Below are positions 12,230 through 59,966 of a stretch of DNA of 64,000 nucleotides, in pieces. This DNA comes from a virus, in the IMG/VR virus record IMGVR_UViG_3300031951_000015, positions 110,668 through 174,667 of that record; one strand, 5' to 3'. Numbering within the stretch: the stretch's first letter is position 1; each line of letters begins with the position of its first letter. The notes beneath the pieces were generated by a model. That model had not been told where the DNA came from. It worked only from the letters and a program-made list of their open reading frames with translations, and ran no database searches. The translations under genes were made by a program, and so were the position numbers.

Positions 12230-12847
12230 GGTTTGTTTAGACCATCTTTTATTGGCAGCATCACTTAATTTTTTTCTTGTTTCCTCTGTAATATTGCAAA
12301 TACGTCCCAATACAAGTCCTTCAGATAGTTTTTCTTGAACTTTTATTCTCATTATTCTATGATTCTTTTTTGTTTTTGGGTCATACATCCAAACTAAATC
12401 CAGTTTTTTAAGTGTTTGTTTTCTTTTTATTGAACTTTCTTCTGTAAAAACTTGAAGTGCTCTTGCTCTTCTAATCTTCTCTCTTGCACTTTCATTTAGA
12501 AAAAATTTACCTTTTTTAACTTTACTCATTTTTTCTTTTGTTTCTTGAGATGTAACTGCACCCTCTCTCGTAAATTTAGTCGAAGTTTGTTTTGCCCTAT
12601 TAGCAAAATGTGAGTTAAGAGCAATATCATAAAAATTATGCAACTTTATTTCTGCACGAATTGCATCCTTTCTTGTTTTAAACGTTTCGATAATTACTTT
12701 TTGAGTGGGATTAAATGTTTTATCGTGAAATGATCCAAAATAGTTTATATCTTGTTCCGGTAAGCAATTGCAACTTCTACACCCAATATACCCCCTACCC
12801 CACTCTTCATAAGAATAATAGGTATAATGATACTTCTTATTAGACAT
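12221..12847 (-). CDS. GIY-YIG homing endonuclease
   Basis: Residues 6-22 (YHYTYYSYEEWGRGYIG) form a GIY-YIG-type first motif. CRSC follows, then GSFHDKTF and an Arg/Glu-containing helix (KTRKDAIRAEIKLH) fitting the nuclease fold. The C-terminal half has two copies of an EETKEKMSKVKKGK-like element (residues 100-120 and 185-200) resembling NUMOD3 DNA-binding repeats. It is free-standing between a fibre gene and a small structural gene. A late promoter lies in the loop of a long-range inverted repeat just upstream (12861-12926). Confidence 0.78.
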   Translation of the reverse strand: MSNKKYHYTYYSYEEWGRGYIGCRSCNCLPEQDINYFGSFHDKTFNPTQKVIIETFKTRKDAIRAEIKLHNFYDIALNSHFANRAKQTSTKFTREGAVTSQETKEKMSKVKKGKFFLNESAREKIRRARALQVFTEESSIKRKQTLKKLDLVWMYDPKTKKNHRIMRIKVQEKLSEGLVLGRICNITEETRKKLSDAANKRWSKQTNK

Positions 12848-12871
12848 TTCTTTACCATTAGGACCGCATAT

Positions 12872-12880
12872 GTATTTATA
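12872..12880 (-). promoter_or_regulatory. T4-type late promoter (consensus TATAAATA)
   Basis: TATAAATAC on the minus strand, 25 bases before the GIY-YIG endonuclease start, directly after the terminator at 12887-12907. Confidence 0.65.
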
Positions 12881-12886
12881 TTAAAA

Positions 12887-12907
12887 AGGAGGGACTTACA
12901 CCCTCCT
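12887..12907 (-). terminator. Rho-independent terminator
   Basis: AGGAGGG / CCCTCCT stem of 7 bp with a 7-base loop, followed on the minus strand by TTTTT. It is a second terminator behind the 136-residue gene, about 60 bases after the first. Confidence 0.7.
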
Positions 12908-12955
12908 CCTGATAAGATTGCGGTCCATCAGGTATTAATATTTATCATAAAAAAA

Positions 12956-13422: not shown

Positions 13423-13431
13423 GTATTTATT
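13423..13431 (-). promoter_or_regulatory. T4-type late promoter motif
   Basis: AATAAATAC on the minus strand, 34 bases before the start at 13389. Confidence 0.6.
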
Positions 13432-13493
13432 ATACTATAAGTTTAGTATCCTGAAAAGTCAGATATGAATATTTATTGGAGTTGTTAAGCATT

Positions 13494-22172: not shown

Positions 22173-22727
22173 TCAACTATTTATTGCTTGATGGTCTGGA
22201 AGTTTAGGAAGTAAATCAAACGCAATGATTGTTCTTTGTTTTCTCGATTGATTGGGATGAACGAAGTGTAAAGTATAAGAAGGAACAATAAACAGTGTTC
22301 CTTCTTTTACATCTTGTGGATGTGCAAGAGTTGTTGTATCAGTTCTCGGATCTTGCCAAGGTGCTACAAAGCAAGTAGGAGTATGATGTTTCGAATCATA
22401 CTCCACATAAAGAACACCAGAGAATCCCCAACTTTTATGGTTGTGAACTGTCTGATGATCTCCTTGTTTATATCTCACTGCCCAACAATCAGTCATACTA
22501 CAAGTTACTTGTGCTTCCTGACAGAACTCAAACAGTTGAGGTCTGATGAGGTCTTGGAAGTAATGTAGGTATGACTTTTTATTTGTTTGGCGATCAGTCT
22601 CAAAAGTTTGAAGAGTGGTTCTTACAAACTTTTGAGAGTTGATTCTGTTGAGAAGTCCACGGCGCTTAAAGTCCCAGTCGTCTATTTGGTATTGGTATGA
22701 TGGATATTCAAAGAGTGGTGCTTTCAT
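22173..22727 (-). CDS. 2OG-Fe(II) oxygenase-like protein
   Basis: The start at 22727 (MKAPLFEYPSYQY) is chosen because its ATG overlaps the stop of the upstream HNH gene (ATGA) and GGAG lies at suitable distance; the longer ORF needs a TTG start. The protein has DCWAVRYKQGDHQTVHNHKS with metal histidines, WGFSGVLYVEYD, and a distal HFVHPNQSRKQRTIIAFDL with His and Arg. This is a phage 2OG-Fe(II) oxygenase pattern related to the protein at 2456. Substrate unknown. Confidence 0.72.
   Translation of the reverse strand: MKAPLFEYPSYQYQIDDWDFKRRGLLNRINSQKFVRTTLQTFETDRQTNKKSYLHYFQDLIRPQLFEFCQEAQVTCSMTDCWAVRYKQGDHQTVHNHKSWGFSGVLYVEYDSKHHTPTCFVAPWQDPRTDTTTLAHPQDVKEGTLFIVPSYTLHFVHPNQSRKQRTIIAFDLLPKLPDHQAINS
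22177..22185 (-). promoter_or_regulatory. T4-type late promoter motif
   Basis: AATAAATAG on the minus strand, 20 bases before the start at 22157, inside the last codons of the oxygenase gene. Confidence 0.55.
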
Positions 22728-23515
22728 ACTGGCAATCTCCAACCACGATGATGATCTACTTCAAATCTTGATAATCTTTGCATCTGTCTTTTACTCAATC
22801 CAAAATCTTTACAATGTTCATCAATATCATCAACTTTTACAATATTATTATCTGGCGATAAGAAATAATAAGTTTTCAATCTTGCTTTTCGGCATAACTC
22901 CCTTTGCTCATCGCTCATAATCAAGTTTGGTCTAATCGTATTTGTTATTTTAGCAGTCCAACCTTTATAATGATTTCTCTTTCCCATACAAACATAACAC
23001 ATAGTAGGGTTGTGTAAGTTATGTTCTAAACAAAAACTTTTCAAACTTTGAGTAATATATTCTTTACCATTTGGATCTGTAATCAAATATTCATAAACAA
23101 ACTTTGTTTTTCGCATCTTATCAACGTGTTCTTTTTTGGATTTCACACCACGACACCTATCACCAACAGCATTACCAACTCTTATTTTTAATCCTTCATA
23201 AAGACGTGAGTTGCAATAATATTCTTTATCACCACTTTTATGATGATTCATTTTCCAAAAAGCGTGAGTCATCTTTATTGTTTTTGGATGCTTTTCTCCA
23301 TACCTTTTGATAAATGCTTTTTCTAATAGAGAGTGAGCAATATAATGTTCTCTGGCAGTCAAATATACAATCCTTTTGTTCCCTTCTGTTGTCTGCCCAT
23401 AAAGAGATCTTGGAAAAACGTGATGTCCTTCCACATACATTTTCACATTTCTTTTGTTGTAACCTCTTTTCTCTGCGTTTCGTATAAGGTTACAGTAAGT
23501 CCTTAGGTAGTTCAT
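22724..23515 (-). CDS. HNH homing endonuclease
   Basis: Residues 28-60 contain VEGHHVFPRSLYG and NKRIVYLTAREHYIAHSLL, a classic HNH pattern with paired histidines, Asn and the distal His. The C-terminal half has SLKSFCLEHNL and HYKGWTAKI plus LSKRQMQRLSRF and HHRGWRLPV, which look like two helix-turn-helix DNA-binding repeats of phage homing enzymes. It sits between two oxygenase genes and its stop overlaps the next start. A late promoter lies inside a long-range inverted repeat upstream (23527-23599). Confidence 0.8.
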   Translation of the reverse strand: MNYLRTYCNLIRNAEKRGYNKRNVKMYVEGHHVFPRSLYGQTTEGNKRIVYLTAREHYIAHSLLEKAFIKRYGEKHPKTIKMTHAFWKMNHHKSGDKEYYCNSRLYEGLKIRVGNAVGDRCRGVKSKKEHVDKMRKTKFVYEYLITDPNGKEYITQSLKSFCLEHNLHNPTMCYVCMGKRNHYKGWTAKITNTIRPNLIMSDEQRELCRKARLKTYYFLSPDNNIVKVDDIDEHCKDFGLSKRQMQRLSRFEVDHHRGWRLPV

Positions 23516-23526
23516 AACTGCTCTTT

Positions 23527-23599
23527 GGTTGGTGACGTACTATTTATGCAAGAAAAGGGCACCAGAGCGCCCCATTCTACCTGAAATGTGTCACCAACC
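23527..23599 (-). repeat. 10-bp inverted repeat enclosing a late promoter
   Basis: GGTTGGTGAC (23527-23536) pairs perfectly with GTCACCAACC (23590-23599). The loop has an inner hairpin (GGGC...GCCC) and the late promoter at 23540-23548. The proximal arm ends 11 bases from the HNH gene ATG, beside its weak ribosome site (AAGAG). I see no gene in the 102 bases between the neighbouring genes. Confidence 0.65.
23540..23548 (-). promoter_or_regulatory. T4-type late promoter motif
   Basis: CATAAATAG on the minus strand, 25 bases before the HNH endonuclease start. Confidence 0.6.
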
Positions 23600-23617
23600 C
23601 AGGCACTTATATTTAGG

Positions 23618-24346
23618 TCACCGGGCACGGTCCCAGGCGCAATGTGCCCTCTGCCCATCTTGTAACACGTAGTGAAAAAATATTTGATGGTAGTACAACT
23701 GTTCTTGATTTTTACCAAATAGTTTTTTACCTTTTCTATTAAGTCCTGGCATTGGATCACGCCAATGAGGTCTGGAACAACCTTTATAAACCATTCCATC
23801 ACCAGGTTTCAGAATCACTGAACGATTCTCACCAGGAACTAATACCTGTGTCTTCTTTTTATCTGCATAAGTATCTGGTGTTTTAATCCAGATCGGCCAG
23901 TCAGCATCTTCACCAGTTAGATTAGTGCTGATATGAACCGTTACAGAAATCTCACAAGCATCACGATCTGCGTGACGGGTAAGTTCTTGTCCTGGGAAAT
24001 AATAACGATCATAATAATAGGTATTATAAAGTTTACGTCCCAATACTTCTTCCAGTTTCATACGAATACCACAATGGATTTGGCGATATTGTGGATGCCA
24101 ATAACGAGCAAGAGAACCTTCAACTTGCATCTCAACTTCATGATGGGTGAACTGATCCATCTTTTTACCCCACCAGTTCAGTTGTCCACGCTCTTGTGGA
24201 ACTGGATGATAGAGTTCCTCAGGATTCCACAAGTCTTTAATAACTAGATATCCATTCTTTTCAAAGGATTCGTTGTGAGTCCAGGCAGTACCTGTATTCA
24301 TCCTTTCCTGCATCATCAGTTGCAGTTCTGTCATTTGTTCTGCCAT
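23618..24346 (-). CDS. 2OG-Fe(II) oxygenase superfamily protein (242 aa)
   Basis: The central part has YYYDRYYFPGQELTRHADRD, containing an H-x-D metal motif, then CEISVTVHIST, DWPIWIKTP, and a distal GDGMVYKGCSRPHWRDP where the second His and an Arg are expected. The topology fits a prolyl-hydroxylase-like 2OG enzyme. GAGG precedes the ATG. It is separated by eight bases from the next oxygenase upstream, so the two form an operon. Substrate unknown. Confidence 0.75.
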   Translation of the reverse strand: MAEQMTELQLMMQERMNTGTAWTHNESFEKNGYLVIKDLWNPEELYHPVPQERGQLNWWGKKMDQFTHHEVEMQVEGSLARYWHPQYRQIHCGIRMKLEEVLGRKLYNTYYYDRYYFPGQELTRHADRDACEISVTVHISTNLTGEDADWPIWIKTPDTYADKKKTQVLVPGENRSVILKPGDGMVYKGCSRPHWRDPMPGLNRKGKKLFGKNQEQLYYHQIFFHYVLQDGQRAHCAWDRAR

Positions 24347-42443: not shown

Positions 42444-42494
42444 TGTTTTTAAAAGAGTAGTAAGACCATCAGGGAAATGGTGGAGTTACTATTC

Positions 42495-42515
42495 CCCAGT
42501 CACCCTCAGACTGGG
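42495..42515 (-). promoter_or_regulatory. Hairpin in the psbA leader
   Basis: CCCAGTC / GACTGGG stem of 7 bp with a 7-base loop, 52 bases upstream of the psbA start. A second weaker pair (ACACCC at 42535-42540 with GGGTGT near 42556-42561) lies just upstream. No T-tract, so probably a leader structure rather than a terminator. Confidence 0.5.
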
Positions 42516-42606
42516 TATGAGAGACGTTCTTATACACCCATAGGTCTCGGTTAACGGGTGTTTAACAATGTAACGAATTATGAGAGATCCGTAACATTTG
42601 TTTACC

Positions 42607-59859: not shown

Positions 59860-59870
59860 CACTAGGTCTT

Positions 59871-59966
59871 TCATGCACGCCACCAATTCTTTAACTGGAA
59901 ATTGGAAACCAGGCGGGAGAGAGTCCCATCCGCACCACCAATCCTTGAGAGAGATTGGAAACTCAT
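59871..59966 (-). CDS. Possible small protein (31 aa)
   Basis: MSFQSLSRIGGADGTLSRLV then SNFQLKNWWRA. The stop is 12 bases before the terminator. No good ribosome site is visible, and a 4-codon ORF overlaps its start. Two copies of ATTGGAAAC lie in the region. Tentative. Confidence 0.35.
   Translation of the reverse strand: MSFQSLSRIGGADGTLSRLVSNFQLKNWWRA

Follow-up and report, generated by a model that had tools for sequence, protein, structure and literature searches.

A leader module with covarying arms around a late promoter upstream of cyanophage homing endonuclease genes, and its possible action as an antisense-like brake

A perfect inverted repeat around a late-promoter motif, placed directly before a homing endonuclease gene, raises the questions of what the repeat does there and whether it belongs to this one gene. 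The locus lies in IMG/VR record IMGVR_UViG_3300031951_000015, 174,667 bases in length, of which a stretch of 64,000 nt (the window) was analysed; two photosystem reaction-centre genes of psbA/psbD type (PF00124; 41490-42362 and 39662-40531, both on the minus strand) identify the record as that of a cyanophage. The gene (22724..23515, minus strand, its TGA overlapping the ATG of the next gene) encodes a MobE-like HNH protein of 263 aa. The protein matches phrog_655 (homing endonuclease) with E=1.2e-20, and in tblastn the gene matches MobE of Aeh1 with 32% identity (E=3e-18). No Pfam family was found at E 0.001, and PF22083, at 0.0059, stayed below its cut-off. Judged by the PHROG and tblastn family matches, the product is a MobE-type homing endonuclease. 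All genes around the leader lie on the minus strand.

A preliminary description of this DNA had reported the repeat and its position, and both are borne out: 23527-23536 and 23590-23599 are complementary at 10 of 10 positions, lie 53 nt apart, bracket the late motif CATAAATAG (23548-23540) and stop beside an AAAGAG ribosome site. Three further parts were absent from that description, namely a terminator inside the loop between the arms, a second late-type box upstream, and a small CCTG/CAGG stem. Read on the gene strand (minus for every part), the leader starts with the upstream box CCTAAATA (P1; 23610..23617), late-promoter-like by motif and by its fixed spacing in relatives, which forms the 5′ edge of an inserted cassette. 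Then come TAAGTG, CCTG, the 5′ arm GGTTGGTGAC (23590..23599, read 23599-23590), ACATTT and CAGG; the small stem pairs CCTG (23603-23600) with CAGG (23583-23580), is supported by covariation, and holds the 5′ arm in its loop (23580..23603). The second half consists of the terminator GGGGCGCTCTGGTGCCCTTTTCTT, an intrinsic hairpin GGGGCGCTCTGGTGCCCT (23556..23573) followed by a TTTCTT T-run, the late promoter P2 CATAAATA (23541..23548, assigned by motif), the 3′ arm GTCACCAACC (23527..23536), AAAGAG (23521..23526) and, 5 nt further, the ATG at 23515.

The described cyanophage late promoter is NATAAATA (PMC2984593). As the T4 late box begins at -13 (PMC2988020), we placed +1 at 6 nt after the box. 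By this rule a transcript from P1 of the HNH leader would begin with G, and from the position of P1 and of the terminator we infer a small RNA of ~50-55 nt (23551..23604, minus strand), running from the purine 6 nt past P1 to the terminator. For P2, the base 6 nt after the box is a T, not a purine, with a G one base earlier; the predicted start is the first (G) or second (T) base of the 3′ arm. AAAGAG follows directly on the end of the perfect arm, and the minimum-energy fold pairs part of it through an extended helix.

As a 101-nt RNA, the HNH leader folds at -38.9 kcal/mol (z = -3.86). Compared with 400 random upstream segments, its duplex energy across the promoter was equalled by a fraction of 0.0025 and its arm length by 0.0075. 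The late motif ATAAATA occurs 31 times on the coding (minus) strand of the window and 3 times on the plus strand. Under our script's rule 24 of the 31 are followed by an ORF and 7 are not, and only two of these 24 are bracketed by arms of at least 8 bp: the HNH leader (10 bp) and the leader of a GIY-YIG gene (8 bp). A known Rfam RNA was ruled out as the leader, since the Rfam 15 covariance models gave no match at E up to 1 between 23450 and 23750. At gathering scores, Rfam searches of nine sources returned only wcaG, PhotoRC-II, a group I intron and tRNAs. The window itself has wcaG at 59869-59966 (101 bits) and PhotoRC-II at 42481-42573 (79 bits), both on the minus strand and both typed by Rfam as cis-regulatory RNAs.

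The GIY-YIG leader (12846..12946, minus strand; gene 12847-12221) has the same anatomy, with arms GGACCGCA/TGCGGTCC. It folds with z = -4.10, and fractions of 0.0025 (duplex energy) and 0.02 (arm length) of the 400 random upstream segments equal it. A third intact leader of the same phage stands before another GIY-YIG gene (G000:C1:66357-66459, L163; arms TTTGCTCGCA/TGCGAGCAAA). A covariance model made from 72 leaders, the window's included (R1), detected three strong copies in the genome of this phage, plus two weak matches (E 0.2 and 0.6).

The preliminary description saw in the HNH and GIY-YIG leaders one logic reached twice by convergent control, in sequences unrelated to each other. The common logic, a late promoter enclosed by arms next to the ribosome site, holds; the lack of relatedness does not. 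The difference is confined to the arms; P1 box, CCTG(A)...(T)CAGG, terminator and P2 align between the two leaders. We then used a model (R3) built from 40 leaders and trained only on other GIY-YIG leaders, the window's and the MobE-type HNH leaders being kept out. R3 recovers both window leaders (23617-23514 with E=3.2e-11; 12946-12846 with E=2e-8) and gives a weak third place at 13477-13427 (E=0.092). It also matches 10 of 10 MobE-type HNH loci offered, nine of which had come from the DNA pattern given below or from genomes reached through it, and one (L034) from a protein search. It matches none of seven other loci (Aeh1, S-PM2, two of ACG-2014f, Sf-CH5, S-B43, S-H68). The R3 matches make a convergent origin very unlikely. 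The weak third place (13427..13477, minus strand; R1 E=0.206) is a possible decayed copy, AATAAATA...CTGACTTTTCAGG, without arms. With its box and CTGA-CTTTTCAGG it lies upstream of the gene 13389-12979, and a fuller remnant of P1, stem and terminator accompanies a similar gene in L198 (G001 65321).

That the leaders of relatives looked alike first suggested a shared pattern, and the same logic was found upstream of other cyanophage homing genes. Scanning viral sequences for CCTGA-N8-14-TTTTCAGG-N14-42-ATAAATA gave at least 120 matching stretches; the window's HNH and GIY-YIG leaders deviate from this strict pattern by a base or two and are therefore outside the counts based on it. Among the matches listed, duplicates included, 96 of 123 carry perfect arms (8-11 bp), vs. 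239 of 2866 (8%) when arms were cross-paired between listed elements; in the remaining 27 of the 123 the arms reach 6 bp or fewer. All collected loci together gave 127 matches, which reduce to 70 distinct arm-bearing and 17 distinct armless elements among the matches listed. A protein-based search for HNH relatives in viral contigs returned only the near-identical contigs of L005 and L006 (100% over 3200 bases), which carry no information; a search with the exact arms found 22 stretches, of which L021 and L022 come from these same two contigs. Arms are present before homologous HNH genes, yet mobE of Aeh1 has a different hairpin. No such leader was seen at the inspected loci of the GIY-YIG relatives L036 and L038-L042 (S-PM2, two loci of ACG-2014f, Sf-CH5, S-B43, S-H68).

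The position of P1 is nearly invariant. Among the matches listed, 67 of the 70 distinct elements with arms show TAAATA separated by exactly 6 nt from the CCTGA that follows, the other three having the box at 5 nt, at 7 nt, or none (a TATATA variant); the same spacing occurs in 4 of the 17 armless elements listed. When elements were selected independently of arms, by TAAATA 6 nt before CCTGA, arms of at least 8 bp were present in 67 of 71 distinct elements among the matches listed. Among the 70 listed arm-bearing elements, transcription is predicted to start on a purine in 69 at P1 and likewise in 69 at P2. P1 reads NCTAAATA rather than NATAAATA in 26 of 69 of the matches listed and in the window's HNH leader, and promoters of this form are possibly weak, as far as the motif tells. 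The upstream gene uses the TAA of P1 as its stop codon in 23 of 59 cases, which counts against the small-RNA reading given below. Across 67 elements the information content does not exceed background (at most 0.29 bits) between -60 and -14, and climbs at the P1 box. An intrinsic terminator was predicted in 90 of 90 distinct middle segments vs. 2.7% of shuffles. In two of the 70 listed leaders (L032, L104) the stretch from terminator to late box contains a TATAAT, which may be a promoter of host type and likewise lies inside the arms.

The arms vary across the family by compensatory change. In 40 leaders all 10 of 10 arm pairs are compensatory, with a covariation score of 0.610 vs. 0.213 for shuffled and at most 0.133 for slid alignments. 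Of the arm cells, 91% are paired in the alignment of these 40 leaders (A5) and 72.8% in an alignment in which MAFFT misplaced some arms (A1), both percentages being inflated because elements were kept for matching arms; swaps of pair type are unaffected by this. The small stem covaries as well: across 42 leaders chosen to be diverse, 5 of 5 pairs are compensatory (score 0.293 vs. 0.154 after shuffling), and its forms include CTCTAA/TTAGAG, GCTTA/TAAGC, GTCTGT/ACAGAC and CCTTA/TAAGG. Two other tests of this stem are weak: a flexible search yielded 5 pairs for 94 of 95 elements, yet did the same for 40% of shuffles, and with halves swapped between elements 5 pairs were reached in 340 of 552 combinations vs. 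22 of 24 observed.

These data bear on whether the repeat might simply have arisen by chance next to an ordinary terminator-promoter junction. Five further inverted repeats of 8-15 nt, most of them imperfect, do occur in the surrounding 501 bases. Against such an origin stand the family-wide covariation of arms and small stem and the near-absence of the arrangement from bacteria and archaea: in 84,980 species, one genome each, the 5′ pattern had 64 matches, one of them with an 8-nt arm (of low complexity) and one with ATAAATA within 110 nt. With the random-segment comparison added, we reject a chance repeat, which is hardly credible.

In virus records, R1 matches 34 of 43, that is 33 of 35 IMG/VR records and S-SRM01, which has six copies, the 43 having been chosen mostly for pattern or protein matches; it has no match in the other seven records of named cyanophages that were searched. 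A model of the 5′ part alone (R2), run on 28 records, found 59 places and no new ones. Three of them (G005 32135, G011 9112, G001 65321) have neither a 3′ arm nor a nuclease ORF. The S-PM2 record gave no R1 or R2 match at E 0.01. With BLASTN against a phage collection, near-full matches to the query were obtained only in two S-SRM01 records, the others being partial. At L034 of S-SRM01 (2447-2501) the annotated HNH start (QPX48262.1) falls inside the leader, and the likely start is 54 bases downstream.

What follows the leader is mostly a homing endonuclease. Among the matches listed, 124 elements led to 93 distinct ORFs of at least 60 aa; five elements, at contig ends or before a broken gene, had no such ORF. 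Matches to phrog_314 and phrog_655, both homing endonuclease families, were found for 74 and 30 of the 93 ORFs, and one protein may match both. By N-terminal motif, the basis of our GIY-YIG and HNH labels, the 97 distinct arm-ORF pairs comprise 81 with GIY-YIG types, 11 with MobE-type HNH and 5 others. The five include ORFs matching phrog_99, an HNH family (L221), endonuclease VII families (L245) and, weakly, phrog_314 (L217), besides a GIY-YIG gene for which the start used lies within the arm (L229) and a broken gene followed by an unrelated ORF (L058). Arms recur across these types. Ten of the 23 arms seen with at least two distinct ORFs precede at least two ORF types, arm variants being counted apart and one of the ten resting on an unclassified ORF; arm ATGGGTGGTT, for instance, precedes both HNH and GIY-YIG genes. 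By sequence comparison, the leader behaves as a module common to several nuclease families.

At the HNH locus, leader and gene form an inserted cassette (22728..23617, minus strand) at the ATGA stop/start overlap of two host genes. In Bellamy the same two flanking genes overlap at ATGA, GCACGATGAAGGCACC, and the site is empty; in the window the cassette sits between CGG-TGA and ATGA-AAGC, and its own TGA restores the ATGA overlap. Neither the P1 box nor the arms are present at the junction of Bellamy or of S-SM2, the two related phages compared at this place. We assign P1 to the cassette because conservation begins there and because P1 is missing from the junction of these relatives. Judged from this comparison, the leader arrived with the HNH gene as one unit. 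In S-SM2 (L001 1625-2254) the slot that the HNH cassette holds here is occupied by another gene, SSM2_037. The flanking ORF at 23618-24346 (minus strand) has ferrochelatase (phrog_2954) as its best PHROG and no Pfam family, and this name may be doubtful.

A repeat that travels with its gene could work as DNA, as a binding, cleavage or recombination site that aids movement of the cassette or as a site of promoter repression, for which the operator of I-TevI is a precedent (PMC2988022). We regard this as unlikely. A given arm can stand before different types of nuclease, and one type follows many arms, so the arms are independent of the protein; the Bellamy and S-SM2 junctions have no arm; and a terminator and a promoter between the halves would be needless.

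On balance we lean towards a role at the RNA level, in which the cassette is an antisense-like brake before free-standing cyanophage homing genes and a small RNA from P1 would target the mRNA from P2; this rests on sequence comparison and folding. Late in infection P1 would give a terminated RNA of ~50 nt with the 5′ arm in its loop, and this loop would target the 5′ end of the nuclease mRNA made from P2. Pairing beside the ribosome site would lower nuclease translation in trans, scaled to the number of templates. Read-through RNA from upstream genes would hold both arms, fold on itself and be silenced in cis, the terminator removing much of it, and different arms would give each cassette a separate address. 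Because the perfect arm stops before the ribosome site, the block would come from occlusion or from weaker, extended pairing. In two leaders (L222, L234) the complementarity extends to 17 nt, through CCTGA into TCAGGTA ahead of the start codon, and there the ribosome site itself would be covered by the predicted small RNA. We discarded attenuation through pairing of the arms, as the 3′ arm lies past the terminator.

By motif, the predicted small RNA has a promoter and a terminator of its own, and compensatory change maintains its complementarity to the start of the target at all ten arm pairs. In folding calculations the HNH small RNA (two hairpins) reached -23.5 kcal/mol and the mRNA -4.1, vs. 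-37.4 for the two together; the predicted complex has the small stem opened, by a program without crossing helices. For the GIY-YIG pair the values were -20.8 and -5.8 alone and -34.4 together. Within genomes, the cognate pairing was the strongest in 51 of 52 cases. A comparison for avoidance of cross-talk within genomes, a possible mark of action in trans, gave no clear sign either way: cross-matches of at least 8 nt numbered 3 vs. 3.34 expected, and the corresponding energy comparison gave P = 0.052. Duplicate elements were dropped before these counts, the permutation left out the near-identical genomes G018 and G021, and 3 of 57 per-copy elements were dropped for unusable arms (the second copy in L198, L206 and L249).

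The main rival is a lock in cis of the T4/Aeh1 type, which we consider possible and clearly less probable. Here RNA from upstream would be silent, transcripts from P2 would start inside the hairpin and be free of it, and P1 and terminator would only manage transcription of neighbouring genes. Such locks have a precedent (PMC2988022). In the mobE DNA of Aeh1 we see long arms around CTAAATAG, the 3′ arm standing immediately before the ATG. In our leaders too the arms bracket P2, the predicted P2 start is at the 3′ arm, and the folds are stable (z = -3.86 for HNH, -4.10 for GIY-YIG). Covarying arms would also be explained by pairing in cis alone. A lock leaves unexplained the fixed 6 nt from P1 to a second covarying stem that crosses the arm helix, as well as the terminator in 90 of 90 segments, and the ribosome site lies mostly outside the perfect helix. 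The lock may act alongside the small RNA.

The two covarying helices, which would cross in one molecule and need not in two, also allow a pseudoknot of small stem and arms within a long RNA from P1 or upstream, serving processing, stability or protein binding. The invariable terminator between the arms makes this improbable, for much of the RNA should end before the 3′ arm, and the required loop lengths look awkward. P1, the separately covarying stem and the terminator are the reasons for favouring action of the small RNA in trans.

A further step, which we offer tentatively and regard as rather doubtful, is that each homing gene has its own trans-acting, antitoxin-like small RNA and that the arms define exclusion groups in co-infection. 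If so, a resident cassette could silence an incoming nuclease with an identical arm, and the solitary 5′ modules at G005 32135 and G011 9112 could be remnants of immunity. Should the small RNA exist, selfish genes of several nuclease families would share a portable antisense brake. S-SRM01, a cultured phage with six copies, makes the idea testable.

Hairpins that hide the ribosome site and contain internal late promoters are described for I-TevI, I-TevII, I-TevIII and segB of T4 and for mobE of Aeh1 (PMC2988022, PMC3014915); as presented in PMC2988022, control of homing nucleases by RNA hairpins has so far consisted of separate cases in T4-like phages. The cyanophage leaders share with them a homing gene, an inverted repeat that brackets a promoter and a late RNA (here predicted) without the 5′ arm, and MobE of Aeh1 is a sequence relative of the window's HNH protein. 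Unlike those leaders, the cassette also contains P1 and a terminator, as well as a second stem that covaries and encloses the 5′ arm, and one alignable module serves several nuclease families, while R3 finds no copy at mobE of Aeh1. In seg43(25) of Aeromonas phage 25 a stable hairpin likewise stands just upstream of an unsequestered ribosome site, and the excerpted account in PMC2988022 does not mention a promoter-terminator-promoter series there. The same alignable cassette, with its two covarying helices, is present before GIY-YIG, MobE-type HNH, phrog_99 HNH (L221) and endonuclease VII-like (L245) genes.

Short RNAs that pair with the mRNA of a nearby gene and inhibit synthesis of its product are familiar from type I toxin-antitoxin systems, and sar of phage P22 is antisense to its target region. 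Sar is a phage RNA of 68/69 nt that pairs with ant mRNA (PMC12197685), and the RNA predicted here would resemble it in pairing with the mRNA of a nearby gene and inhibiting synthesis. Unlike sar, it would be made upstream on the same strand, match through an inverted repeat and be directed at homing nucleases. CfrI of S-PM2, ~225 nt and antisense to psbA and F-CphI (PMC2984593, PMC12197685), is likewise a cyanophage non-coding RNA tied to a homing endonuclease gene (F-CphI). The leader was rejected as an antisense RNA of the CfrI kind, being on the gene's own strand and finding no R1 or R2 counterpart in S-PM2 at the threshold given above. Excerpts of the open-licence PMC literature held no description of such a leader; the logic of its single parts is known, and their combination and the sharing of one cassette across nuclease families appear to be new.
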